Positions 1 through 11,345 of a stretch of 11,345 nucleotides of DNA are shown in pieces. Below the pieces are notes generated by a model. The model searched no databases and was not told the DNA's origin. It worked only from the letters and a program-made list of their open reading frames with translations. This stretch comes from Clostridia bacterium (lineage in GTDB: Bacteria > Bacillota > Clostridia > Oscillospirales > Acutalibacteraceae): NCBI GenBank assembly GCA_900764115.1, contig CAAFMR010000420.1:1-11345 (forward strand), read 5' to 3'. How positions within the stretch are numbered: the first letter of the stretch is position 1; each line of letters opens with the position of its first letter. A program made the translations under genes and the position numbers.

Positions 1-866
1 CGGAAATCGTGATGATCGACATTAACAACGAGAAGGCGCTGGGTGAGGCGCTGGACATCCGGCAGGGAACGCCCTTCTGCGCCCCCTGCTCTATCTATGC
101 CGGCAGCTATCCGGATGCGGCGGATTCCAATATTGTGATCCTCACCTCCGGCGTCGCCCGTAAGCCCGGTCAGTCCCGGTTGGAGCTGGCGCAGATCAAT
201 GTGAATATCACGAAATCCATCATTCCGGAGATTACCCGCTATGCACCGGACGCCACCTACATTATTGTGTCCAACCCGGTGGATGTGCTGACCTATGCTT
301 TCCATAAGCTGTCGGGTCTGCCGGAAAATCGCATCATTGGCTCCGGCACCATCCTGGATACTGCCCGGCTGCGGGCGCGGCTGTCGGAATACTATGGCAT
401 CAGCCAGAGCAATGTCCACGCCTATGTGTTCGGCGAGCATGGCGATTCTTCCTTCATCCCCTGGTCGGTGGCGAACATCTCCAATGTGCCGATTAAGGAA
501 TGTCAGACGGTGTTCCACGGGGATAAGCTGGAGAACCCGGTGCTGGATCTCAAGGAGATCGAGGACTATGTGCGGAAATCCGGCGCCCGGGTGATTGCCC
601 GCAAGGGAGCCACCTTCTACGCCGTGTCCATGTCGGTGTGCCATATATGTAAGTGCATTCTCAATGGGATCAACACCACCATGACGGTGTCCACCATGAT
701 GCACGGGGAATACGGCATTGACGATGTGTGTCTCAGCACCCTCAACGTGGTAGGGCGGGACGGCGTGCGCAGCAAGGTGAATATTCCGCTGAACGACAAC
801 GAGGTACAGCTGCTCCGGCATAGCGCCGACACCCTCAAGGGCGTCATCGGCAGTCTGGAAATCTGA
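1..866 (+). CDS. LDH/MDH-family dehydrogenase, probable malate dehydrogenase (5' partial)
   Basis: NAD-dependent 2-hydroxyacid dehydrogenase, cut by the window edge; the reading frame is open from base 3. About 25-30 N-terminal residues with the Rossmann glycine motif are missing. Overall it looks like bacterial L-lactate dehydrogenase: NPVDVLTYA, GSGTILDTARLR (catalytic-partner Asp at 357-359, substrate-binding Arg at 366-368) and GEHGDS (catalytic His at 438-440). However, the specificity loop reads GVARKPGQSR, so LDH position 102, Gln in lactate dehydrogenases, is Arg (codon 159-161). In this superfamily Arg at that site selects oxaloacetate/malate. Fumarase follows 18 bases downstream, which supports malate dehydrogenase interconverting oxaloacetate and malate with NADH in the cytoplasm. 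Homology-based pipelines would probably label it L-lactate dehydrogenase. The family is certain; substrate preference is inferred. Confidence 0.85.
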   Translation, partial: EIVMIDINNEKALGEALDIRQGTPFCAPCSIYAGSYPDAADSNIVILTSGVARKPGQSRLELAQINVNITKSIIPEITRYAPDATYIIVSNPVDVLTYAFHKLSGLPENRIIGSGTILDTARLRARLSEYYGISQSNVHAYVFGEHGDSSFIPWSVANISNVPIKECQTVFHGDKLENPVLDLKEIEDYVRKSGARVIARKGATFYAVSMSVCHICKCILNGINTTMTVSTMMHGEYGIDDVCLSTLNVVGRDGVRSKVNIPLNDNEVQLLRHSADTLKGVIGSLEI

Positions 867-884: not shown

Positions 885-2261
885 ATGGAATATCGGATCG
901 AACACGATTCTATGGGAGAAATGCAGGTGCCTGCCGACCGTCTCTGGGCGGCGCAGACCCAGCGCAGCCATGAGAATTTTAAAATCGGGGTGGACATTGA
1001 AACGATGCCCCGGGAGATCACCCACGCATTCGGTATCCTCAAGAAAGCGGCGGCGCTGGCGAACGCCCAGCTCAAGCCCGAAAAAATGACGGCGGAAAAG
1101 GTGACGGCGATTGCCGCCGCCTGTGATGAGGTCATTTCCGGGGCGCTGAACAGCCATTTCCCGCTGGTGGTATGGCAGACCGGCTCCGGCACCCAATCGA
1201 ATATGAATGCCAACGAGGTTATTGCGAACCGTGCCAATCAGATTGCCGGCAAAAAGTTGTGCCACCCCAACGACGACATCAATATGAGCCAATCCTCCAA
1301 CGATACATTCCCCACCGCCATGCACATTGCGGCGGTGCTGGCGATTGAGGATAAGCTGCTGCCCGCTGTGGAAGAGCTGGTGGCGACCTTTAAGCGGCTG
1401 GAGGCGGAGAACGAGGGCATCGTCAAGTCCGGGCGCACCCATCTGCAGGATGCGACCCCCATCAAATTCAGCCAGGAGATCTCCGGCTGGCGCTCCAGCC
1501 TGGAGCGGGATGCCGCGCTGCTGCGTCTGGCGGTGAAGCCGCTGTATGAGCTGGCGCTGGGCGGCACCGCCGTGGGCACCGGGCTGAATGCCCCTGTCGG
1601 ATTTGCGGAGCTGGTGGCTGCCAAAACAGCGGAGCTGACCGGCAAGCCCTTTGTCACGGCACCCAACAAATTCCATGCCCTCACCTCCAAGGATGAGCTG
1701 GTGTTCGCCCACGGAGCGATCAAAGCCACTGCCTGCGATATGATGAAAATTGCCAACGATGTGCGCTGGCTTGCCAGCGGTCCCCGGGACGGGCTGGGGG
1801 AGATCCACATTCCCGAAAACGAGCCCGGCTCCTCCATTATGCCCGGTAAGGTGAACCCCACCCAGTGCGAGGCGGTCACCATGGTGGCGGTGCAGGTCAT
1901 CGGCAACGATGTGGCGGTGGGGATGGCGGCATCTCAGGGCAATTTTGAGCTGAATGTGTTTATGCCGGTCACCATCTATAATTTCCTGCAGTCTGCCCGG
2001 CTGCTGGCGGAGGCGATCGTGTCCTTTAATGACAACTGTGCCGTGGGCATCACCGCCAACCGGGAGAAGATGAACCACAATCTGCATAATTCCCTCATGC
2101 TGGTGACGGCGCTCAATCCCTACATCGGCTATGAGAACGCCGCCAAGACGGCGAAAAAAGCCTTTAAGGACAATATCTCCCTGAAGGAGGCCTGCGTGGA
2201 GCTGGGCTTCCTGACGGCGGAGCGGTTCGATGAGGTGTTCCATCCGGAACAGATGGTCTGA
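885..2261 (+). CDS. fumC: Class II fumarate hydratase (fumarase C)
   Basis: Iron-independent fumarase of the aspartase/fumarase superfamily, interconverting malate and fumarate in the cytoplasm. The 458 residues match the usual FumC length. Visible motifs are TGSGTQSNMN (about 99-108), SSNDTFPTA (138-146), GRTHLQDATP with the active-site His186, and the superfamily signature GSSIMPGKVNP (315-325), which carries the catalytic loop serine. The N-terminus is complete, with the typical E-x-D-S-M-G-E opening. It sits between a probable malate dehydrogenase and the Hdr/Flx/fumarate-reductase genes, so it likely supplies fumarate from malate for reduction to succinate. Aspartase is the main alternative. 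The neighbours and overall sequence favour fumarase. Confidence 0.93.
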   Translation: MEYRIEHDSMGEMQVPADRLWAAQTQRSHENFKIGVDIETMPREITHAFGILKKAAALANAQLKPEKMTAEKVTAIAAACDEVISGALNSHFPLVVWQTGSGTQSNMNANEVIANRANQIAGKKLCHPNDDINMSQSSNDTFPTAMHIAAVLAIEDKLLPAVEELVATFKRLEAENEGIVKSGRTHLQDATPIKFSQEISGWRSSLERDAALLRLAVKPLYELALGGTAVGTGLNAPVGFAELVAAKTAELTGKPFVTAPNKFHALTSKDELVFAHGAIKATACDMMKIANDVRWLASGPRDGLGEIHIPENEPGSSIMPGKVNPTQCEAVTMVAVQVIGNDVAVGMAASQGNFELNVFMPVTIYNFLQSARLLAEAIVSFNDNCAVGITANREKMNHNLHNSLMLVTALNPYIGYENAAKTAKKAFKDNISLKEACVELGFLTAERFDEVFHPEQMV

Positions 2262-2278
2262 CAGGGAGGTTTTTCCGT

Positions 2279-3085
2279 ATGAAAGTCAGTTATTTTCCCG
2301 GCTGCACCCTGCGCACCAAGGCGAAGGAGCTGGATGCCTATGCCCGGGAATGTGGGGCGCTGCTGGGGGTCGAGCTGTGCGAAATTCCCGATTGGCAGTG
2401 CTGCGGCGGGGTGTTTTCCTCTGCCAAAGATGAGATTGCCTCCAAGCTGCCCTCGGTGCGGGCGCTGGTGGCGGCGCGGGAGGCGCAGCAGCCGTTGGTG
2501 ACGGTGTGCGCCGCCTGTCACAACGTCATCAAGCAGACCAACTATGCCATGCAGACCGACGAAACCTTTGCCGCTCGGGTGAACGCCTATATGGCGCAGG
2601 ATACGAACCCCGCCGCCCCCTATCACGGGGAGACGGCGGTGTACCACTATCTGGAGCTGCTGCGGGATACCGTGGGCTTCGATAAGGTGCGGGCGGCGGT
2701 GAAGCACCCCCTCACCGGACAGAAGATCGCCGCCTATTACGGCTGCCTGCTGCTGCGCCCCGGCAAGGTGATGGTGTTTGACGACCCGGAGAATCCCCGG
2801 ATTCTGGAGGAATTCATCCGGGCGCTGGGGGCGGAGCCGGTGCTGTATGCCCAGCGCAACGAGTGCTGCGGCGGGTATACCGTGCTGGAAAACCCGGCGG
2901 GCGCTCAAAAGCGCTCCCGGGCGGTGAGCGAGGATGCGGCGGCGCACGGCGCTCAGCGGATCGTTACCGCCTGCCCTCTGTGCCGGTATAATCTGGAGAA
3001 GAACGGCAGCCCCCTGCCGGTGGTGTATTTCACCGAGCTGCTGGCGGAGGCGCTGGGGGTAAAGGCGCCGGCGGCAGACGAATAA
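2279..3085 (+). CDS. hdrB: HdrB-like heterodisulfide reductase subunit B (two CCG domains)
   Basis: Resembles HdrB, the subunit that holds two non-cubane [4Fe-4S] clusters and delivers electrons to a disulfide or another high-potential acceptor. Two complete cysteine-rich CCG domains are visible: C9, C41-C42, C77 and C80, then C156, C196-C197, C232 and C235. The second begins in YYGCLLLRP, typical of HdrB. The length (268 residues) is somewhat short of methanogen HdrB but lacks nothing obvious. The ATG has GGGAGG 9 bases upstream. It starts 17 bases after fumC. In methanogens this subunit reduces CoM-S-S-CoB, which a clostridial host would not make, so the physiological acceptor here is unknown. 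A link to the downstream fumarate-reductase-like pair is inferred from context. Confidence 0.9.
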   Translation: MKVSYFPGCTLRTKAKELDAYARECGALLGVELCEIPDWQCCGGVFSSAKDEIASKLPSVRALVAAREAQQPLVTVCAACHNVIKQTNYAMQTDETFAARVNAYMAQDTNPAAPYHGETAVYHYLELLRDTVGFDKVRAAVKHPLTGQKIAAYYGCLLLRPGKVMVFDDPENPRILEEFIRALGAEPVLYAQRNECCGGYTVLENPAGAQKRSRAVSEDAAAHGAQRIVTACPLCRYNLEKNGSPLPVVYFTELLAEALGVKAPAADE

Positions 3086-3167
3086 GGTGCGTATGACCGG
3101 CGTTTTGCGGCTTTGGCTGTTTGCGTGAGAGCCGCCTGGATTCCGCAAGAAAGGAAGGATCCTGAAG
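3086..3167 (+). other. Longest intergenic gap, with two competing inverted repeats
   Basis: These 82 bases between hdrB and hdrC are the largest gap in the run. GCGGCT (3107-3112) can pair with AGCCGC (3130-3135), and overlapping TTGCGG (3105-3110) can pair instead with CCGCAA (3143-3148). The stems are only 6 base pairs with long loops and no T-tract follows, so a terminator is unlikely. It could be a weak RNA processing or translation-control structure, or chance. AAGGAAGG at 3151-3158 is the ribosome binding site for hdrC. Confidence 0.3.
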
Positions 3168-3560
3168 ATGGACACGAAGAATGAACGGCTGCGGGAGCAG
3201 GTGCTGCGCATGAGCGGCGTCAACCCCCGCAAATGTATGCGCTGCGGGAAATGCTCCGGCACCTGCCCCTCCTATGACGAGATGGAGTATCATCCCCACC
3301 AGTTTGTTTCCGTGGTGGAGAACGGCGATCTGGAGACGCTGATGCAGTCGCCCTCCGTCTATAAGTGCTTGTCCTGTTTCGCCTGCGTGGATCGCTGTCC
3401 CCGGGGCGTGGAGCCGGCAAAGCTCATTGAGGCGGTGCGGCTGGCGGTCATCCGACAGAAGGATGGCAACCATATGACCGCCGACGATATTCCGGCGCTG
3501 GTGGACGAGGCGCTGCCCCAGCAGGCGGTTATGAGCGCGCTGCGGAAATATTCCAAGTAA
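3168..3560 (+). CDS. hdrC: HdrC-like heterodisulfide reductase subunit C (dicluster ferredoxin)
   Basis: Small electron-transfer subunit that wires HdrA to HdrB. The 130 residues hold two CxxCxxCxxxCP motifs, at C23/C26/C29/C33 and C67/C70/C73/C77, predicted to bind two [4Fe-4S] clusters. The second is followed by the RGVEPAKLIEAVR segment typical of HdrC. The start has AAGGAAGG 9 bases upstream. hdrA follows 16 bases after the stop, so the two are almost certainly co-transcribed. There are no membrane segments, so it is HdrC of the soluble HdrABC type rather than part of a membrane-bound HdrDE enzyme. Some bacterial annotations call this a 4Fe-4S dicluster protein; the HdrB and HdrA neighbours settle the assignment. 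Confidence 0.9.
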   Translation: MDTKNERLREQVLRMSGVNPRKCMRCGKCSGTCPSYDEMEYHPHQFVSVVENGDLETLMQSPSVYKCLSCFACVDRCPRGVEPAKLIEAVRLAVIRQKDGNHMTADDIPALVDEALPQQAVMSALRKYSK

Positions 3561-3576
3561 GAAAGGGGATACCGCC

Positions 3577-5571
3577 ATGCAAAGAATTGGCGTGTTTGTG
3601 TGCCATTGCGGCACCAATATTGCCGGCACGGTGGACGTCAAGGCTGTAGCCGAGGCGCTCAGCCATGAGCCGGGTGTGGTGATCGCCACCGATTATCCGT
3701 ATATGTGTTCCCAGGCAGGACAGGAGATGATTCGGGAGGCGATCGCCGCCCATCATCTGACCGGGATCGTGGTCTGCTCCTGCTCCCCCCGGATGCACGA
3801 GGCGACCTTCCGCAAGACGGCGGCTGCCGCCGGCATCAACTCCTATATGGTGGAGATCGCCAACATCCGGGAGCAGTGCTCCTGGGTGCATAAGGATATG
3901 CCCACCGGCACCGAAAAAGCCATCATCCTCGCCAAGGCGGCGGTGGCAAAGGTGCACCTCAATGCTCCGCTGACCCCCGGCGAAAGCCCGGTCACCAAGC
4001 GGGCGCTGGTCATCGGCGGCGGTATCGCCGGCATCCAGACGGCGCTGGATATTGCCGACGCCGGGTTCCCGGTGGATATCGTGGAGACGAAGCCCACCAT
4101 CGGCGGCAAGATGGCGCAGCTGGATAAAACCTTCCCCACCCTGGACTGTGCCGCCTGCATCCTGACCCCGAAGATGGTGGATGTGGCGCAGAATGAGAAA
4201 ATTCGGATTTTCTCCTATTCCGAGGTGACCGCCGTCAAGGGCTTTGTGGGCAATTTTGATGTTACCATCAAGCGCAAGGCGCGGTATGTCAAAGAGGCCG
4301 TCTGCACCGGCTGCGGTGCCTGCACCGAAAAGTGCCCCATGAAGAAGGTGCCCAACGAGTTCAATCTGGGTATGGATAACCGCCATGCCATCTATATCCC
4401 CTTTGCCCAGGCGGTGCCGAAGGTGGCGACCATCGACCCCAACTACTGTCTGATGCTGAAAAACGGCAAATGCGGTGTCTGCTCCAAGGTGTGTACCGTG
4501 GGCGCCATCGACTATCAGGCGAAGGACGAGTATGTGGAGGAGCAGTACGGCGCTATTGTGGCGGCGACGGGCTTTAACCCCATCTCCATGGAAAAATTCG
4601 ACGAGTTTGCCTATTCCCAGTCCAAGGATGTCATCACCTCTCTGGAGCTGGAGCGGCTGATGAACGCTGCCGGACCTACCGGCGGCACCCTGCTGCGTCC
4701 CTCCGATGGGGAGCATCCCCACACCATCGTGTTTGTGCAGTGTGTAGGCTCCCGGTGCGCTGCCTGTGCGGATAAAGGCAAGGAATATTGCTCTAAGATC
4801 TGCTGTATGTACACCGCCAAGCATGCCATGCTCATCCGGGATAAATACCCGGATACCGAGGTGTATGTGTTCTATATTGACGTGCGTACCCCCGGCAAGA
4901 ATTTTGACGAGTTCTACCGCCGGGCGGTGGAGGAGTACGGCGTCCACTATATTAAAGGTATGGTGGGTAAGGTGACCCCCGAGGGGGGCAAGCTCCATGT
5001 GCAGGCATCCGACCTGCTGGATAACCGGCAGCGGCACATCGACGCCGATCTGGTGGTGCTGGCGGCGGCGATCGAGCCGGATAAATCCGCCCGTCCGCTG
5101 GCGACCATGCTGACCGCCAGCATGGACACCAACGATTTCTTCACCGAGGCGCACCCCAAGCTGCGCCCGGTGGAAAGCCCCACCGCCGGCGTGTTCCTGT
5201 CCGGCACCTGCCAGGGTCCCAAGGATATTCCGGAGACGGTCTCCCAGGCGGGCGCGGCAGCGGCAAAGGTGATCGGGCTGCTGGCGAAGGATAAGCTGAT
5301 GGGCAATCCCTGCGTGGCACATTCCGACGAGATGATGTGCAACGGCTGCTCCACCTGCGAGCGGGTCTGCCCCTACGGTGCCATCACCTATGTGGACAAG
5401 GAGTTCCGAATGCCCGACCGCACCACGAAGGTGCGTCGGGTGGCATCGGTCAATGAGGCGGTCTGCCAGGGCTGCGGCGCCTGCACGGTGGCGTGTATGT
5501 CCGGGGCGATGGATCTGCGGGGCTTCACCAACAGACAAATTATGGCGGAGGTGGATGCGATATGCCGATGA
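3577..5571 (+). CDS. hdrA: HdrA-like flavoprotein, candidate electron-bifurcating subunit
   Basis: Full-length HdrA (664 residues, like the methanogen protein), the FAD subunit that in HdrABC complexes splits electron pairs between ferredoxin and HdrB. In order: an N-terminal HdrA domain with FVCHCG (C9, C11), YMCSQAGQE (C44) and CSCSPRMHE (C67, C69); a dinucleotide fold with GGGIAGIQTA (147-156); GGKMAQLDKTFPTLDCAAC (176-194), well conserved in HdrA; an inserted ferredoxin domain (C243/246/249/253, with C291, C299/302/306); a Cys-rich stretch around 389-410; and a C-terminal two-cluster ferredoxin domain (C588/591/594/598 and C630/633/636/640). GAAAGGGG lies 8 bases before the ATG. The 3' end overlaps the next gene. 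Bifurcation is known for the methanogen enzyme and inferred here. Confurcation, the reverse direction, is equally possible from sequence. Confidence 0.93.
   Translation: MQRIGVFVCHCGTNIAGTVDVKAVAEALSHEPGVVIATDYPYMCSQAGQEMIREAIAAHHLTGIVVCSCSPRMHEATFRKTAAAAGINSYMVEIANIREQCSWVHKDMPTGTEKAIILAKAAVAKVHLNAPLTPGESPVTKRALVIGGGIAGIQTALDIADAGFPVDIVETKPTIGGKMAQLDKTFPTLDCAACILTPKMVDVAQNEKIRIFSYSEVTAVKGFVGNFDVTIKRKARYVKEAVCTGCGACTEKCPMKKVPNEFNLGMDNRHAIYIPFAQAVPKVATIDPNYCLMLKNGKCGVCSKVCTVGAIDYQAKDEYVEEQYGAIVAATGFNPISMEKFDEFAYSQSKDVITSLELERLMNAAGPTGGTLLRPSDGEHPHTIVFVQCVGSRCAACADKGKEYCSKICCMYTAKHAMLIRDKYPDTEVYVFYIDVRTPGKNFDEFYRRAVEEYGVHYIKGMVGKVTPEGGKLHVQASDLLDNRQRHIDADLVVLAAAIEPDKSARPLATMLTASMDTNDFFTEAHPKLRPVESPTAGVFLSGTCQGPKDIPETVSQAGAAAAKVIGLLAKDKLMGNPCVAHSDEMMCNGCSTCERVCPYGAITYVDKEFRMPDRTTKVRRVASVNEAVCQGCGACTVACMSGAMDLRGFTNRQIMAEVDAICR
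5547..5552 (+). promoter_or_regulatory. Ribosome binding site inside hdrA for the MvhD/FlxD-like gene
   Basis: GGAGGT within the last codons of hdrA lies 9 bases before the ATG at 5562 and 15 before a second in-frame ATG at 5568 (which forms ATGA with the hdrA stop). Spacing favours 5562. Either choice gives translation coupled to hdrA. Confidence 0.6.
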
Positions 5572-5996
5572 ACGAATATCAGCCGAAGATCGTGGCATTC
5601 TGCTGCAACTGGTGCTCCTATGCGGGCGCCGACCTGGCGGGCAACAACCGGCTGGCGTACCCCGCCGATGTGAAGATCATCCGGGTACCCTGCTCCTGCC
5701 GGGTGAACCCTATGTTCATTCTGCGGGCGTTCCAGCGGGGGGCGGACGGGGTCATCCTGTGCGGCTGTCACCCCGGCGACTGCCATTATACCTCCGGTAA
5801 TTACTATGCCCGCCGCCGGATGGCGCTGCTGTTCTCCATGCTGGATTATCTGGGCATTGAGCGGGAGCGCACCCGGGTGGAATGGGTCAGCGCCGCTGAG
5901 GGCGCCAAGTTTGCGGCGACGATGAACGATTTTGTGTCCACGGTGGCGGCGTTGGGCGAAAATAAGCGATTGGAGGATTGGCGATGCAAACGATAA
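5562..5996 (+). CDS. flxD: MvhD/FlxD-like [2Fe-2S] electron-transfer protein
   Basis: Small iron-sulfur protein of the MvhD family, which in methanogens passes electrons from hydrogenase to HdrA and in Flx-Hdr complexes from the NADH module to HdrA. The 144 residues match the family length. Conserved cysteine blocks are FCCNWCSYAGAD (C14, C15, C18), PCSCRVNP (C44, C46) and CGCHPGDCHY (C67, C69, C74), the known [2Fe-2S] region. No hydrogenase large or small subunit is nearby; the neighbours downstream are Flx-type genes, so FlxD is the better name. It overlaps hdrA by 10 bases and the next gene by 13. The alternative start at 5568 would drop two residues only. Confidence 0.92.
   Translation: MPMNEYQPKIVAFCCNWCSYAGADLAGNNRLAYPADVKIIRVPCSCRVNPMFILRAFQRGADGVILCGCHPGDCHYTSGNYYARRRMALLFSMLDYLGIERERTRVEWVSAAEGAKFAATMNDFVSTVAALGENKRLEDWRCKR
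5972..5976 (+). promoter_or_regulatory. Ribosome binding site setting the FlxC-like start
   Basis: GGAGG lies 7 bases before the ATG at 5984, inside the end of the flxD-like gene. An in-frame TTG at 5978 would have only one base of spacing, so ATG 5984 is preferred. Confidence 0.7.
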
Positions 5997-6976
5997 CCCG
6001 TGAGGATCTCATTGCCCGGGCGGCGGCGCTGCTGGCAGACGGCACGGTGGATCGGGTGCTGGGCTGGCAAGCCGGCGCGTTCGGCTATGACGTGACCCCG
6101 GCGCTGTTCCGCACCCCGGAGGCGCTGGAGCAGTCCTTTGTCTGGAACAGCTTTTGCGGCGCTAATTTTTCCAAGTATCTCATTAAAGAGACCGGCAAAA
6201 GCGACGGCAAGGTGCTGGTGTTTCTCAAGCCATGCGATACCTATAGCTTCAATCAGCTGCTGACCGAGCATCGGTTTGACCGGCAAAAGGTATATGTCGT
6301 GGGCGTCCCCTGCGACGGGATGCTGGATGCCGGACGGCTGCAGCAGGCGGCGGGAGAGATCCGCTCTGTCCGGGAGGACGGGGAGACGGTGCTGGTGGAG
6401 ACTCTGTATGACGGCGAAAAGACGCTGGAGCGGGCGGAGCTGCTGCCCGACCGCTGCGTGCATTGCAAATCCAAGCAGCATGTCGCCTATGACGAGCTGC
6501 TGGGCGAGGACGGCACGGTGCTGGACAGCCACCGGTTTGACGAGGTGGAGCGGCTGGAGCAGCTGACCCCGGACGAGCGGTATGCTTTCTGGCAGAATGA
6601 GCTGTCCCGGTGCATTCGCTGCAATGCCTGCCGGGATGTGTGCCCCGCCTGCACCTGCGAGCGGTGCGTGTTCGACAATCCCAATTCCGGGGTGGAAAAC
6701 AAGGCGGCAGCCACCTCCTTTGAGGAGCAGATGTTCCATATCATCCGGGCATTCCATGTGGCGGGGCGCTGCACCGATTGCGGCGAATGCTCCCGGGTCT
6801 GCCCGCAGCATATTCCGCTGCACCTGCTCAACCGGAAATTCATTAAGGACATCGACAATCTCTACGGCGAGTATCAGGCGGGCGCCGAGGTAGGCAGCCG
6901 CGCGCCCATCGTCAACTATACCGTCGAGGATCCGGAGCCCCGTGAGGCTGTGGAAAGGGGGAGCCGCCATGCGTAA
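5984..6976 (+). CDS. flxC: FlxC-like 4Fe-4S dicluster protein, F420-hydrogenase beta-like
   Basis: Iron-sulfur subunit of the Flx NADH module. The N-terminal half (1-200) has motifs of the coenzyme F420 hydrogenase/dehydrogenase beta type, such as GWQAGAFGYD and FLKPCDT. The C-terminal half carries two ferredoxin motifs, C210/213/216/220 and C263/266/269/273, predicted to bind two [4Fe-4S] clusters. Extra cysteines occur at C158xxC161 and in CPACTCERC (220-228), so a further metal site is possible. The 330-residue protein has no signal or membrane segment. It overlaps the upstream gene by 13 bases and the downstream gene by 8. It likely relays electrons between FlxA/FlxB and FlxD-HdrA. The FlxB and FlxC labels could be swapped relative to published Desulfovibrio naming. 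Confidence 0.75.
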   Translation: MQTITREDLIARAAALLADGTVDRVLGWQAGAFGYDVTPALFRTPEALEQSFVWNSFCGANFSKYLIKETGKSDGKVLVFLKPCDTYSFNQLLTEHRFDRQKVYVVGVPCDGMLDAGRLQQAAGEIRSVREDGETVLVETLYDGEKTLERAELLPDRCVHCKSKQHVAYDELLGEDGTVLDSHRFDEVERLEQLTPDERYAFWQNELSRCIRCNACRDVCPACTCERCVFDNPNSGVENKAAATSFEEQMFHIIRAFHVAGRCTDCGECSRVCPQHIPLHLLNRKFIKDIDNLYGEYQAGAEVGSRAPIVNYTVEDPEPREAVERGSRHA

Positions 6977-7997
6977 GATCGAATTAGAGCAGTTGGATAC
7001 GCTGCTGGCGGCGCTGGCAGAGAAGGCTGCCCTGTATCTGCCGGTGGATACCGCCGCCGGCGCCCGGTATGAGCGCTATGAGGCAGGAAAAAAGCTGTCC
7101 GGGGCGCTGAACACCGGTCGCGGGGTCAAGGATTTCTTCTTTCCCAAGACCGAAAATCTGATGGATTTCAAGGTGGAGGGCAAGACCATCGAGATCGAGG
7201 ATACCCGCCGGGAGCAGGAGGATTTCATCCTGTTCGGGGTGCGGGGCTGCGATGTGCAGGCGCTGGAGGTGCTGGATCGGGTGTTTCTGGCTCCGCCGAC
7301 CGATAGCTATTATCAGGAGCGGCGGACGCATGGCGTAATTATTTCGCTGGCGTGTGACCGCCCTGCCGAGACCTGTTTCTGCGGCACCTTTGGCATTGAT
7401 GCCGCCGATCCGGCAGGGGACGTGACCTGCTGGAAAACGGCGGATGCCCTGTATCTGAATGCCAAGACTGAGAAGGGTGCGGCATTGCTGGCGCAGCTGG
7501 AGACGGTCACCGCCCCCGCCGATGAAACGGCGGCGGACGAGGCAAAGGCGACCGCCCGCCGGCGGTTGGAGACGTTGCCGTTGGCGACCCTGTCGGCGGA
7601 TGCCTTCGGCGCCGGGAAAACGGAGCAGTTCTTCAATGCCCCGGAATGGGCGGAGCTGTCCGAATCCTGTCTGGGCTGCGGCACCTGCACCTTTGTATGC
7701 CCCACCTGCCAGTGCTACGATATTAAGGATTTCAATACCGGTCACGGGGTCAAGCGGTTCCGCTGCTGGGATAGCTGTATGTATTCCGAATTCACCAAAA
7801 TGTCGGCGGGGCAGCCCCGTCTGACCCAGCTGGAACGGTTCCGCCAGCGGTTTATGCACAAGCTGGTGTATTACCCCACCAACAACGACGGGCTGTTCTC
7901 CTGCGTGGGCTGCGGGCGGTGCCTCAACAAATGCCCCATCCGGATGAACATCGTCAAGGTGATGAAAAAGCTGGGAGGAGGCGCACAGGATGCTTGA
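6969..7997 (+). CDS. flxB: FlxB-like 4Fe-4S dicluster protein (AsrA / sulfhydrogenase beta-like)
   Basis: Iron-sulfur subunit resembling AsrA of anaerobic sulfite reductase and the beta subunit of archaeal sulfhydrogenases, which always pair with a flavin NAD(P)H module like the next gene. The N-terminal domain (1-225) has FILFGVRGCDVQALEVLD (87-104) and CFCGTFG (136-142). Two ferredoxin motifs follow: CLGCGTCTFVCPTCQC (234-249) and CVGCGRCLNKCP (312-323). The length is 342 residues. GAAAGGGGG (6953-6961) lies 7 bases before the ATG, inside the upstream gene. It overlaps both neighbours by 8 bases (ATGCGTAA and ATGCTTGA). No sulfite reductase AsrC or hydrogenase catalytic subunit is present, so those functions are unlikely. 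A role as relay from FlxA is inferred. Confidence 0.8.
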   Translation: MRKIELEQLDTLLAALAEKAALYLPVDTAAGARYERYEAGKKLSGALNTGRGVKDFFFPKTENLMDFKVEGKTIEIEDTRREQEDFILFGVRGCDVQALEVLDRVFLAPPTDSYYQERRTHGVIISLACDRPAETCFCGTFGIDAADPAGDVTCWKTADALYLNAKTEKGAALLAQLETVTAPADETAADEAKATARRRLETLPLATLSADAFGAGKTEQFFNAPEWAELSESCLGCGTCTFVCPTCQCYDIKDFNTGHGVKRFRCWDSCMYSEFTKMSAGQPRLTQLERFRQRFMHKLVYYPTNNDGLFSCVGCGRCLNKCPIRMNIVKVMKKLGGGAQDA

Positions 7998-8820
7998 GAA
8001 AGAACCGCTGATGCCGGTGATCGGCGTGGTGACGGATATCCGGATCGACACCCCGGACGTGAAAACCTTTCGGGTGGTAACGCCGGAGGGCAAAAAGGCG
8101 TTTGACCATATGCCCGGTCAGTGTGCGATGCTGTCTGTGCCCGGAGTGGGGGAGGCAATGTTCTCCATCACCTCCTCGCCGACGAACACGGAGTTTATGG
8201 AGTTCTCCATCAAAAAGTGCGGCTGCGTCACCGAATGGCTCCACGCCATGGAGGTGGGACAGCAGATCACCATCCGCGGCCCCTATGGGCGGCCCTTCCC
8301 GGTGGATACGGAGTTTGCCGGACACGACCTGCTGTTCATCGCCGGCGGCATCGGGCTGGCGCCCCTGCGCTCGGTGATTAACTATTGCCGCCATTATCGG
8401 GAGCGCTACGGCAAGATTGATATTGTCTACGGCTCCCGCAGCAAGCAGGATCTGGTGGACTATCGGGAAATTATTGAGGAATGGGAACAGGATGCGGGCG
8501 TGAGCGTGCATCTCACCATCGACCGGGAGCAGCCGGAATGGGACGGTCATGTGGGGTTTGTGCCCAATTATGTGAAGGAGTTGGGCTTCTCCACCGATAA
8601 GATCGCCGTGCTGTGCGGTCCGCCCATTATGATTAAGTTCACCCTGGCGGGGCTGCAGGAGCTGGGCTTTGATAAGACCCAGGTGTATACCACTCTGGAG
8701 CTGCGGATGAAGTGCGGCATCGGCAAATGCGGGCGCTGCAACGTGGGCGCCAAGTATGTGTGCAAGGATGGCCCGGTGTTCCGCTGTGACGAGCTGGACG
8801 AGCTGCCCAACGAATATTAA
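7990..8820 (+). CDS. flxA: FlxA-like FAD/NAD(P)H-binding oxidoreductase subunit with [2Fe-2S]
   Basis: NAD(P)H entry or exit point of the Flx module, in the ferredoxin-NADP reductase fold family with AsrB and sulfhydrogenase gamma subunits. Order: FAD-binding barrel (about 8-105) with MFSITSSP (57-64) in the position of the flavin-binding RxYS motif and RGPYGRPFPV (96-105); NAD(P)H domain with IAGGIGLAPLRS (117-128), YGSRSKQDL (147-155) and CGPPIMIKF (209-217); a C-terminal [2Fe-2S] site with C242, C247, C250 and C258. The 276-residue length is normal. The start overlaps the upstream stop by 8 bases, with a GGGAGGAGG ribosome binding site at 7973-7981. Whether it prefers NADH or NADPH cannot be read reliably; Flx complexes are described as NADH-linked. 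Confidence 0.9.
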   Translation: MLEKEPLMPVIGVVTDIRIDTPDVKTFRVVTPEGKKAFDHMPGQCAMLSVPGVGEAMFSITSSPTNTEFMEFSIKKCGCVTEWLHAMEVGQQITIRGPYGRPFPVDTEFAGHDLLFIAGGIGLAPLRSVINYCRHYRERYGKIDIVYGSRSKQDLVDYREIIEEWEQDAGVSVHLTIDREQPEWDGHVGFVPNYVKELGFSTDKIAVLCGPPIMIKFTLAGLQELGFDKTQVYTTLELRMKCGIGKCGRCNVGAKYVCKDGPVFRCDELDELPNEY

Positions 8821-8851
8821 GCGCAGATAAGAGCAGAGGAGACGGATATAT

Positions 8852-9526
8852 ATGGAGAATATGGTGAATGTCTACCTGTTCGGTAAGCAGTACAGCGTGC
8901 CGGACAATCTGACGATTATGCGGGCGATGGAATACGCTGGATACCAGCTGGTGCGGGGCTGCGGCTGCCGCAACGGCTTCTGCGGCGCCTGTGCCACCAT
9001 CTACCGCATCAAGGGCGACCGCACCCTGCGCACCTGTCTGGCGTGCCAGACCAAGGTGGAAAACGATATGTATGTGGCGACGCTGCCGTTCTTCCCGCTG
9101 GTGAAACAGGTGTACGATATAGAAAAGATCCGCCCCACCGAGCAGATTATGATGCAGCTGTATCCGGAGATCTATGCCTGCGTGGGCTGCAACGCCTGCA
9201 CCAAGAGCTGCACCCAGGGGCTGAATGTGATGCAGTACATCGCCTATGCCCAGCGGGGCGAGTTCGACAAGTGCGCCGAGGAGTCCTTTGACTGTGTGAT
9301 GTGCGGCGTTTGCTCCTCCCGCTGCCCGGCGGGGATCTCCCATCCCCAGGTGGCGATGCTGGCGCGGCGGCTCAACGGCAAGTATCTGGCGCCCAAGTCG
9401 CAGCATCTGGCGGATCGGGTGCAGGAAATCCAGGACGGTACCTTTACCGAGCTGATCGAGGCGTTGATGGATAAGCCCATTGAGGAAATGAAAGAGCTGT
9501 ACAACCATCGGGAAATTGAGAAATAA
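8852..9526 (+). CDS. Fumarate reductase-like iron-sulfur subunit, modified cluster set
   Basis: Resembles FrdB/SdhB and the front part of TfrB of thiol:fumarate reductase, and would pass electrons to the flavoprotein encoded next. The N-terminal plant-ferredoxin domain has a [2Fe-2S] site at C39, C44, C47 and C62 (GCGCRNGFCGAC). The C-terminal part has two CxxCxxCxxxC motifs, C110/113/116/120 and C148/151/154/158. In ordinary FrdB/SdhB the last site lacks one cysteine and binds [3Fe-4S]; here it is a full four-cysteine motif, so [4Fe-4S] is predicted. The 224 residues are close to FrdB length, with no CCG domain of the kind fused in TfrB. The start follows GAGGAG (8836-8841) by 10 bases. It may take electrons from HdrB or HdrC; that link is inference. 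Confidence 0.85.
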   Translation: MENMVNVYLFGKQYSVPDNLTIMRAMEYAGYQLVRGCGCRNGFCGACATIYRIKGDRTLRTCLACQTKVENDMYVATLPFFPLVKQVYDIEKIRPTEQIMMQLYPEIYACVGCNACTKSCTQGLNVMQYIAYAQRGEFDKCAEESFDCVMCGVCSSRCPAGISHPQVAMLARRLNGKYLAPKSQHLADRVQEIQDGTFTELIEALMDKPIEEMKELYNHREIEK

Positions 9527-9538
9527 GGAGGGCGCAGT

Positions 9539-11137
9539 ATGTATCCGAAGGAACTGGAAGCATCCCTGAAGGCAGTGGAGGCGGCACGGGCGGCGAATAT
9601 CGCCTATGAGCCGGCGCGTATGACTGCCGACGAGAAGGACGCCCTGCTGGCGGCGTACCATCCCGACTATAAAAAGAGCGAGTTTGCTACTCTGCAGATC
9701 GGTGCCAACAAGGGGGAGCAGGTGCCCCACGAGCTGTGCGAGATGCTGCAGGCGCACAGCCGGATCACGGCGGCGGACGTGGATCTGTCTGCGGTGAAAT
9801 ACGATGTGGACGTGCTGATCATCGGCGGCGGCGGGGCAGGTGCTTCGGCGGCGATCGAGGCGGATAACGCCGGCGCCAATGTGATGATCGTCACCAAGCT
9901 GCGCATCGGCGATGCCAACACCATGATGGCAGAGGGCGGCATTCAGGCGGCAGATAAGCCCAACGATTCCCCCGCCATTCACTTTGTGGACGCTTTCGGC
10001 GGCGGGCATTATGCCGCCAAGCGGGAGCTGCTGGCGAAGCTGGTGTGTGATGCCCCCGAAGCCATCCAGTGGCTCAACGATCTGGGGGTGGAATTTGACA
10101 AGGCGCCGGACGGCACCATGATCACCACCCACGGCGGCGGTACCTCCCGCAAGCGGATGCACGCCGCCAAGGATTATTCCGGGGCGGAAATTATGCGTAC
10201 CCTCCGGGACGAGGTGCTGAACCGGAGCATCCCGGTGGTGGATTTCACCGCCGCCATTGAACTGATTCTGGATGAAAACGGCAAGGCGGCAGGCGCCGTG
10301 CTGATGAATATGGAAACCAAGGAGCTGATGGTCGCCCGGGCAAAAACGGTGATCATCGCCACCGGCGGTGCCGGACGGATGCACTATCAGGGCTTTCCTA
10401 CCTCTAACCATTATGGCGCCACCGCCGATGGGCTGGTGCTGGGCTATCGGGTGGGGGCAAAGCTGCTGTATGCGGACACGCTGCAGTATCACCCCACCGG
10501 CGCAGCCTATCCCCAGCAGATTTTCGGCGCCCTGGTGACCGAAAAGGTGCGCTCTCTGGGGGCTAAGCTGGTGAACCGGGACGGCAAGGTGTTCATGCAC
10601 CCGCTGGAGACCCGGGATGTGGCGGCAGCCTCCATCATCCGGGAATGCTCCGACCGGGGCGAGGGCGTGGATACCGGCAGCGGCGAGGCGGTGTGGCTGG
10701 ATACCCCGATGATTGAAGCCATCGGCGGCGAGGGCACCATCGAAAAGCGCATCCCCGCCATGATGCGGATGTTCGCCAGCTACGGCATCGACATCCGCAA
10801 GGAGCCGATTCTGGTATATCCTACCCTCCACTATCAGAACGGCGGGCTGGACATCACCGTGGACGGGATGACCACCACGGTGGAGAACCTGTATGTGGCG
10901 GGTGAGGCTGTCGGGGGCATCCACGGACGCAACCGGCTGATGGGCAACTCCCTGCTGGATATCATCGTGTTTGGCCGTACCGCCGGCAAAAATGCCGCCG
11001 CCAAAGCTAAGGATGTGACGGTGGGGGCGCTGACGCTGGAGCATATCGCCCGGTTTGATGCTGAGCGGGCGGCGGCGGGCGTGGAAACGGACGCTGTTTC
11101 GCCGAAGCTGCTGCCGGATTACCGACACACTAAGTAA
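9539..11137 (+). CDS. Fumarate reductase-like flavoprotein without flavinylation histidine
   Basis: FAD-containing catalytic subunit of the FrdA/SdhA/TfrA/NadB family, predicted to reduce fumarate to succinate. Residues 1-87 are an extension before the FAD motif DVLIIGGGGAGASAA (91-105). Substrate-site residues known from FrdA appear conserved: QYHPTG (His318), TE (334-335), Arg359 in TRDV, HYQNGG (His431) and NRLMGNSLLD (Arg466). The His that covalently attaches FAD in FrdA/SdhA is replaced by Asn127 in NTMMAEGG, so FAD is probably non-covalent. Only about 50 residues follow the last conserved block, so most of the usual C-terminal helical domain is absent. The AGGAGGG site (9526-9532) is 6 bases upstream. 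L-aspartate oxidase is an alternative, but no other NAD genes are near and an FrdB-like partner is adjacent. Fumarase and malate dehydrogenase upstream favour fumarate. Confidence 0.85.
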   Translation: MYPKELEASLKAVEAARAANIAYEPARMTADEKDALLAAYHPDYKKSEFATLQIGANKGEQVPHELCEMLQAHSRITAADVDLSAVKYDVDVLIIGGGGAGASAAIEADNAGANVMIVTKLRIGDANTMMAEGGIQAADKPNDSPAIHFVDAFGGGHYAAKRELLAKLVCDAPEAIQWLNDLGVEFDKAPDGTMITTHGGGTSRKRMHAAKDYSGAEIMRTLRDEVLNRSIPVVDFTAAIELILDENGKAAGAVLMNMETKELMVARAKTVIIATGGAGRMHYQGFPTSNHYGATADGLVLGYRVGAKLLYADTLQYHPTGAAYPQQIFGALVTEKVRSLGAKLVNRDGKVFMHPLETRDVAAASIIRECSDRGEGVDTGSGEAVWLDTPMIEAIGGEGTIEKRIPAMMRMFASYGIDIRKEPILVYPTLHYQNGGLDITVDGMTTTVENLYVAGEAVGGIHGRNRLMGNSLLDIIVFGRTAGKNAAAKAKDVTVGALTLEHIARFDAERAAAGVETDAVSPKLLPDYRHTK

Positions 11138-11162: not shown

Positions 11163-11345
11163 ATGACCGACTTATTGGAAGCGTTGATGATTTTCTGCTT
11201 TGGTCTGTCCTGGCCAATTTCTATCCGCAAATCCTGGGTCTCCCGCACCGCTAAGGGCAAAAGCCTGTTTTTTGAGGTGTTTCTGCTGGTGGGCTATATC
11301 TGCGGCATCGTGCGTAAGATTATGCTGTCGGTGAATCCTGCCACA
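11163..11345 (+). CDS. Small membrane protein, PQ-loop/SWEET-like start (3' partial)
   Basis: The first 61 codons of a new gene run off the window end. ATG 11163 has AGAGGGGA (11145-11152) 10 bases upstream. Two hydrophobic segments are visible, about residues 4-21 and 36-54, separated by a basic loop. The stretch WPISIRKSWVSRTAKGKS (17-34) resembles the first half of a PQ-loop repeat (Pro, hydrophobic, Lys-Ser, Ser/Thr, Gly, Ser pattern) found in SWEET/SemiSWEET and related small transporters, with Ile in place of the Gln. It does not look like a fumarate reductase cytochrome b or anchor: there is no heme-ligand His in what is visible. It starts only 25 bases after the flavoprotein gene, so it may share the transcript, but a functional link is unproven. 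Confidence 0.6.
   Translation, partial: MTDLLEALMIFCFGLSWPISIRKSWVSRTAKGKSLFFEVFLLVGYICGIVRKIMLSVNPAT

Follow-up and report, generated by a model that had tools for sequence, protein, structure and literature searches.

The window analysed here is the whole 11,345-nucleotide stretch of contig CAAFMR010000420.1 (assembly GCA_900764115.1, a Clostridia bacterium of the Acutalibacteraceae), and it carries a gene cluster for heterodisulfide reductase-like (Hdr), Flx and fumarate reductase-like (Frd) proteins. Eleven co-directional genes on the + strand, followed by the start of a twelfth, were found with all reading frames intact, in the order mdh-fumC-hdrB-hdrC-hdrA-flxD-flxC-flxB-flxA-frdB-frdA (Table 1). 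The intergenic distances range from -13 to 82 bp; the widest spacing is that between hdrB and hdrC (82 bp), and fumC and hdrB are 17 bp apart. An earlier note on this DNA had described HdrABC, a FlxD/MvhD-like protein, three Flx subunits and a FrdB-FrdA pair on one strand with gaps of no more than 82 bases, and no gene for a cytochrome b or membrane anchor, and all of this was confirmed for the window. No membrane anchor gene and no ferredoxin gene were found within the window. Domains were called by Pfam and NCBIfam profile searches of the window proteins. Because the NCBIfam matches of the Hdr, Flx and Frd proteins, in contrast to that of fumarase, fall under the curated cut-offs, these proteins were named from their best matches and from gene order.

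Table 1. Coding features of the window (positions in nucleotides)
Gene	Position	Strand	Product and features
mdh	3..866	+	Lactate/malate dehydrogenase family; 5' end beyond the window; Arg at specificity position (fragment residue 53)
fumC	885..2261	+	Class II fumarase, TIGR00979 above cut-off; scanned as 888-2261
hdrB	2279..3085	+	CCG/HdrB-like (Pfam, NCBIfam); two CCG motifs
hdrC	3168..3560	+	HdrC-like; two 4Fe-4S motifs
hdrA	3577..5571	+	HdrA2-like, 664 aa; FAD and 4Fe-4S motifs
flxD	5562..5996	+	MvhD/FlpD-like; FlpD/MvhD match 185 bits
flxC	5984..6976	+	4Fe-4S protein
flxB	6969..7997	+	Sulfhydrogenase-beta-like 4Fe-4S protein
flxA	7990..8820	+	DHODB-like NAD/FAD/[2Fe-2S] protein; proposed NADH entry
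frdB	8852..9526	+	[2Fe-2S]/4Fe-4S protein
frdA	9539..11137	+	FAD_binding_2 fumarate-reductase flavoprotein
Small hydrophobic ORF	11163..11345, open at window end	+	PQ-loop-like by eye

Homologues of HdrA, HdrB, HdrC and MvhD/FlxD all occur together in the window, as in the FlxABCD-HdrABC complex. The HdrA protein matched PDB entry 5odc (HdrABC-MvhAGD) with 678 bits, and its residues E359 and K415 align with E356 and K409 of M. thermolithotrophicus HdrA, a Glu and a Lys at the FAD that have been linked to bifurcation (PMC12054007). Both residues were kept in 113/113 rows of the HdrA alignment (113 rows from 121 hits plus the window, with the best HdrA per locus taken and extra copies left out), and the cluster ligands of HdrA are all present. 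The ten CCG cysteines of HdrB (C9, C41, C42, C77, C80 and C156, C196, C197, C232, C235) were invariant in 115/115 aligned rows (from 122 hits plus the window), and HdrB is expected to carry two non-cubane clusters. Its best NCBIfam match was SdhE (NF042965; 141.8 bits versus a cut-off of 500). FlxA, in which a Pfam NAD-binding domain is present, and FlxB best matched sulfhydrogenase gamma- and beta-like families, respectively, below cut-off, and FlxC matched 4Fe-4S domains only.

The FrdA protein comprises an N-terminal extension (residues 1-85) and a FAD_binding_2 domain at 91-472; PF02910 was not matched in the Pfam search. In the FrdA alignment (162 rows including the window, from 211 locus hits, with at least 48% identity, a length of 500-600 aa and identical rows counted once), H318, E335, R359, H431 and R466 were found in 162/162 rows and T334 in 161, and by comparison with the E. 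coli enzyme these are taken to be the substrate-binding and proton-donor residues. The position aligned to the flavinylated His of SdhA is Asn127, which is Asn in 161/162 rows and His in one, and the FAD of FrdA is probably non-covalent. The structure model of FrdA best matched flavocytochrome c3 and E. coli FrdA in a fold comparison of residues 68-527, and its best NCBIfam match was TfrA. Membership in TfrAB was rejected, with TfrA scoring 329.9 against a cut-off of 718 and TfrB 35.5 against 385, and with frdB and hdrB as separate open reading frames (ORFs); L-aspartate oxidase (NadB) was likewise rejected for FrdA (TIGR00551, 271.8 bits versus a cut-off of 452.75). The predicted structure of FrdB is weak (pLDDT 66.8, pTM 0.43). 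Its sequence contains one [2Fe-2S] motif (C39, C44, C47, C65) and two four-cysteine motifs (C110-C120 and C148-C158), and all twelve cluster cysteines were kept in 155/155 rows (from 204 hits plus the window). By sequence, the last motif thus has a fourth cysteine, C151, in every row, unlike the [3Fe-4S] site of complex II. A second [4Fe-4S] cluster replacing the [3Fe-4S] cluster is characteristic of E-type enzymes, whose SdhE is a ten-cysteine relative of heterodisulfide reductase (PMC2680327). The window therefore resembles the E-type SdhABE (8-methylmenaquinol:fumarate reductase) of Wolinella succinogenes in its second [4Fe-4S] motif and its ten-cysteine HdrB-like partner; however, the W. 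succinogenes enzyme is membrane-associated and Tat-exported and has no HdrA, HdrC or Flx, and HdrB of the window, unlike a dedicated SdhE as sole partner, is below the SdhE cut-off and sits with HdrA and HdrC. Among the PDB sequence matches of FrdA, HdrA, HdrB and FrdB, no structure is named as a Flx-Hdr-Frd complex.

Conservation was examined with a FrdA scan of one genome per species, which matched at least 592 stretches; 570 of these were confirmed and 80 were kept as close-relative loci. In addition, a class sample of 391 genomes was drawn from the class to which G001 belongs, the genome that carries the closest locus (L001); the window is assumed to come from this class too. Many of the sampled genomes are metagenome-assembled and may be incomplete. 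Absence from a neighbourhood was judged by tblastn at 1e-6 and 40% coverage, on the frdA strand and within 12.5 kb. Sixty of the close-relative loci reach 7.2 kb or further upstream of frdA, and hdrA was located there in 59, the exception being L080. FrdA was detected at E<=1e-80 in 54/391 class genomes, and all 54 loci were fetched. For 43 class loci the upstream sequence spans 7.2 kb or more, and in all of these hdrA was present in the same cluster; 42 follow the gene order of the window, and in the other, L125, frdBA precedes hdrBCA. The remaining 11 loci are shortened by contig ends to less than 7.2 kb upstream, and flxA still adjoins frdBA in 10 of them. The earlier note had put forward a survey of this gene order; within the class FrdAB is indeed kept beside hdr/flx, L080 excepted, whereas other groups show other Hdr layouts or none.

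The co-occurrence was equally strong at the level of genomes. HdrA of the operon type was found in 53/54 FrdA-positive class genomes, and in the exception, G077, the contig ends in flxC. When the 391 class genomes were searched in the other direction, with HdrA as the query, 57 genomes matched, including partial-length matches in G043 and G071 to a different reading frame of 1013 aa. One clear case of Hdr without Frd, that of G028 (HdrA 49%), lies in a cluster with GlcD-, HdrD-, MvhD- and FeFe-hydrogenase-like genes, as judged by eye. FrdA was present in 53 of the other 54 genomes, the exception being G038, whose 5.3 kb contig stops at flxB. Since the pairing holds in 53/54 both ways and the exceptions are on contigs ending inside the operon, operon-type HdrA and FrdA go together almost without exception in the class sample. 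The linkage of hdrA and frdA is more than chance, and the operon proves both frequent and closely conserved in Clostridia.

DsrC, Rnf, anchor and MenA genes were searched for in relatives, namely the 54 FrdA-positive class genomes. Control genomes gave DsrC in 1/14, PF01127 in 7/14 and MenA in 9/14, with E. coli positive for DsrC. DsrC was above cut-off in 0/54 carriers (one weaker match), and the Sdh cytochrome b family PF01127 was found in 0/54, the FrdC and FrdD families not being searched. MenA was above cut-off in 0/54 carriers (two weaker matches), the futalosine route not being searched. Because all three were 0/54, a DsrC carrier and a quinone-linked enzyme are disfavoured in the class carriers, and the DsrC carrier was rejected for the class sample.

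Judging from gene content and residue conservation, the operon is rather likely to encode a cytoplasmic, quinone-free, electron-bifurcating NADH:fumarate reductase (Flx-Hdr-Frd). FlxA would oxidise NADH, and FlxB, FlxC and FlxD would relay the electrons to the FAD of HdrA, where they would be split. The low-potential electron would pass to ferredoxin, and the high-potential electron would travel via HdrC and both clusters of HdrB, reaching FrdB and then the FAD of FrdA, which would reduce fumarate, supplied via mdh and fumC, to succinate. FrdAB would dock on HdrB and end the high-potential branch; this docking is suggested because a FrdB with two four-cysteine motifs together with a ten-cysteine HdrB is the pairing of the E-type SdhABE. 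The net reaction would be 2 NADH + fumarate + oxidised ferredoxin -> 2 NAD+ + succinate + reduced ferredoxin. The potentials are +33 mV for fumarate/succinate, -320 mV for NADH and -420 to -500 mV for ferredoxin, and with these values the coupled reaction was computed to yield -33 to -49 kJ/mol. The earlier proposal of a fumarate reductase that saves energy as reduced ferredoxin instead of using quinone therefore stands as the best reading, supported by the co-occurrence, the conserved residues and the lack of DsrC, PF01127 and MenA; as for the single physical complex, direct HdrB-to-FrdB transfer, bifurcation, stoichiometry and direction, we infer them.

Several observations weigh against this bifurcating reductase. 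Locus L080 contains frdBA and a small ORF with no hdr or flx gene in 9 kb upstream, and no HdrA was found in its assembly of about 1.2 Mb, which may be incomplete; L080 represents either a split-off frdBA pair or an incomplete genome. In a phylum sample of 38 other genomes with the same FrdA type (L173, a second copy in G484, was left out), no hdr or flx gene lies near frdBA in 17, and 13 of these have at least 7.2 kb upstream. Since such hdr-free loci exist, FrdBA can work with other donors. In Riftia symbionts, tfrAB is the exception to the co-expression of the cluster (PMC11636981). The K409/E356 equivalents of HdrA fit bifurcation and are not proof of it, because most archaeal HdrA sequences of several types retain both (PMC12054007). 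HdrB retains every ligand of a disulfide-reducing site, so that a thiol product stays conceivable. Finally, RnfD/RnfE/NqrB were found in only 26/54 carriers (no negative group was run). Rnf was accordingly rejected as a general ferredoxin sink, and reduced ferredoxin may often go elsewhere.

A simple NADH:fumarate reductase, in which Flx and Hdr merely conduct electrons to FrdAB and no ferredoxin is reduced, would agree with the lack of a ferredoxin gene in the window and with the restricted occurrence of Rnf-type genes, and the NADH:fumarate reaction alone is strongly exergonic, at about -68 kJ/mol by the same potentials. However, it would leave a full HdrA idle, with its bifurcation-linked Lys and Glu in 113/113 rows and all its cluster ligands, and we regard it as unlikely. 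Even less probable are two enzymes joined by a thiol carrier, with HdrB reducing a small or DsrC-like disulfide and FrdAB oxidising the thiol to reduce fumarate. Both CCG motifs are kept in HdrB, and a DsrC-like carrier or direct transfer has been weighed for tubeworm symbionts (PMC11636981); yet no DsrC was above cut-off in the 54 carriers, apart from the one weaker match, in a search that did not extend to other carriers. In addition, FrdB lacks a fused CCG thiol module, unlike TfrB.

The complex working in reverse, oxidising succinate and confurcating ferredoxin electrons to NAD+, appears very improbable. Hdr systems can in principle be reversible, and frdBA of the phylum sample is also found near succinyl-CoA synthetase or CoA-transferase genes. 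Nevertheless, this direction is uphill by 33-49 kJ/mol under standard conditions, and the flavinylation His, without which E. coli-type enzymes do not oxidise succinate, is replaced by Asn. The operon of Pseudoclostridium thermosuccinogenes, moreover, comes from a succinate producer (PMC7282089). An enoate other than fumarate is just as doubtful as the true substrate: distant relatives of about 50% identity adjoin genes for PrpD, PrpF, an isocitrate/isopropylmalate-type dehydrogenase and a cytochrome b561-Fer4 protein, but fumC and mdh precede the cluster in the window, a fumarase gene is within the fetched stretch of 38/54 class loci (35/43 long ones), and the fumarate-reductase-type catalytic residues are invariant, though other dicarboxylates could also fit them.

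The putative electron-bifurcating fumarate reductase was next compared with known systems. The FlxABCD-HdrABC of Desulfovibrio vulgaris, reportedly treated by Ramos et al. in 2015 and connected by title with ethanol metabolism, has the seven kinds of subunit that the hdr and flx genes of the window are predicted to encode, and no FrdAB is named in the available part of that source. The methanogen TfrAB is soluble like the predicted enzyme, with FrdB-like and HdrB-like modules acting together; its TfrB is a fused FrdB-HdrB and its donors are the CoM and CoB thiols, whereas the window has separate frdB and hdrB genes and a proposed NADH entry. Methanogen HdrABC-MvhAGD has HdrB, HdrC, MvhD and the core of HdrA, including the residues linked to bifurcation, in common with the window; in the window, NADH via Flx would replace the hydrogenase and fumarate the heterodisulfide. 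Unlike the membrane-bound quinol:fumarate reductase (complex II), the window has no anchor, an Asn at the position of the covalent-FAD His and a four-cysteine third cluster motif.

The closest precedent is the 'succinate operon' of P. thermosuccinogenes, for which ferredoxin-coupled, NADH-driven fumarate reduction was proposed, citing a 2019 preprint of Koendjbiharie and van Kranenburg (PMC7282089). Like the window, it carries, one after another, a fumarase gene, seven Flx-Hdr tags, a pair of fumarate reductase genes and a gene for a hypothetical protein, the seven Flx-Hdr genes being counted from locus tags in steps of five and the window being likened by description; P. thermosuccinogenes is a thermophile and a different organism from that of the window. 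The operon was up about 4-fold under CO2 limitation, though not significantly for every subunit (PMC7282089). A related proposal, flxABCD-hdrABC feeding tfrAB directly, was made for tubeworm symbionts (PMC6315080). The tubeworm symbionts and Thioflavicoccus (PMC6315080, PMC11636981), again likened by description, share Flx-Hdr genes and a soluble fumarate reductase pair with the window but differ in that the genes there belong to a reductive TCA cluster, which also includes korABCD and ATP citrate lyase. The novelty implied in the earlier note is thus not upheld, and the operon belongs to a type that had been proposed before in the literature. No biochemical proof of such a complex was found in the literature searched, which mostly excluded subscription journals, and a phrase search for electron-bifurcating fumarate reductase gave no match there. 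Other roles are given to Frd and Hdr-Flx in PMC12887300, and the available parts of PMC5861303, with the terms in its references alone, and PMC6046458 contained nothing bearing on a bifurcating fumarate reductase.

What is new here is the near-exclusive HdrA-FrdA pairing, an E-type signature suggesting the Frd dock site, carriers in which no match to DsrC, Sdh cytochrome b or MenA passes the cut-off, and modular FrdBA elsewhere. If the prediction is true, succinate formation in many uncultured Clostridia would need no quinone or membrane, and part of the NADH-to-fumarate drop of about 350 mV would be stored in reduced ferredoxin, which could serve H2 formation, Rnf or biosynthesis. It would also add an enzyme to the HdrA-based bifurcators and give HdrB a non-disulfide partner, and the contact between the second [4Fe-4S] of FrdB and HdrB would be a concrete, testable interface.

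In the 38 genomes of the phylum sample, 6 loci of which have less than 7.2 kb upstream, hdrA lies near frdBA in 16, hdrBC without hdrA in 4 and a doubtful hdrC in one (L177, 28%), which is probably spurious. The order frdBA-hdrBCA-flx occurs in four phylum loci and L125, which form one clade on the FrdA tree. In nine loci hdrCBA is accompanied by additional hdrA copies and lies near succinyl-CoA synthetase, and in four (L159, L161, L170, L171) hdrC-hdrB-frdB-frdA stand with no hdrA or flx nearby and, in three of the four, adjoining a class I fumarase gene; by sequence, the latter are candidates for an Hdr-linked fumarate reductase. A further layout, without hdr, has frdBA adjoining class I fumarase and malic enzyme genes. 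On the FrdA tree, loci of like layout group together (24 changes versus a shuffled mean of 42.9), a tree of 92 rows built by a quick method with an arbitrary root and several long branches, from which L126 and L127, with FrdA cut by contig ends, were omitted. The repeated association of Frd and Hdr in differing gene orders supports a functional link with Hdr, and frdBA is a module because other Bacillota pair the same frdBA with other Hdr layouts or none. We tentatively propose, at somewhat short of even confidence, that FrdBA forms a separate branch within the complex II family, with an N-terminal extension, a shortened C-terminus, non-covalent FAD and two [4Fe-4S] clusters in FrdB, and a plug-in module that would dock on HdrABC-Flx in many Clostridia through an E-type FrdB-HdrB contact, giving bifurcating, quinone-free fumarate reduction. 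Elsewhere in Bacillota this module would combine with HdrCB by itself, with assemblies containing several HdrA proteins or with a cytochrome b561 protein, and its substrate would be fumarate or another enoate.

Several individual loci of this kind were also recorded. L150, L156, L157, L158, L172 and L211-L214 contain hdrC, hdrB, two or three hdrA-like genes and flxD, then frdBA, with succinyl-CoA synthetase downstream, and larger bifurcating assemblies are possible there. In L208 and L209, frdBA comes right after a pyruvate carboxylase gene (by Pfam in L208, by eye in L209) with no hdr nearby. L175, L176 and L177 hold the FrdBA relatives of about 50% identity, with PrpD in L175 and L176, PrpF in L175 and the isocitrate/isopropylmalate-type dehydrogenase in L176; frdA is followed in all three by a gene for a 4Fe-4S and cytochrome b561 protein (by Pfam in L176, by eye in L175 and L177). 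These FrdBA proteins are perhaps membrane-linked reductases of aconitate-like enoates.

With regard to the flanking genes, the preceding fumarase of the earlier note was confirmed by its TIGR00979 score, and the probable malate dehydrogenase has to be qualified. The mdh product passes the NCBIfam L-lactate dehydrogenase cut-off (TIGR01771, 308.8 versus 303.55), yet has Arg at the position where lactate dehydrogenases carry Gln, a difference that as a rule separates malate from lactate dehydrogenases. Among the fetched loci, the same Arg was present in 77/77 mdh homologues with an identity of 50% or more, a count in which some genomes appear twice. fumC was found upstream in 53/57 close-relative loci with at least 9 kb 5' of frdA. 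Promoter-like sites in the window were near the shuffled mean (6 versus 4.2); terminator-like sites numbered 12 versus a shuffled mean of 7.6, and the three on the + strand are all within reading frames. A homologue of the small ORF follows frdA within 200 bp in 17/80 close-relative loci, and a Pfam search of the L080 homologue (L080:11618-11944) matched no family. The small ORF possibly belongs to the operon; the hypothetical protein after the P. thermosuccinogenes operon has been suggested as a succinate transporter (PMC7282089).

Two further Hdr loci were noted. At L217:3860-12520, HdrA and MvhD genes lie beside GlcD-like, two HdrD-like, GcvH-like and FeFe-hydrogenase-like genes, all named by eye, which would make up a further assembly built on Hdr, here combined with a 2-hydroxyacid dehydrogenase. 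In L133 (G179:C34:71787-73771), HdrA was matched as two overlapping pieces, residues 1-253 and 251-664, reflecting either a frameshift or an assembly error.

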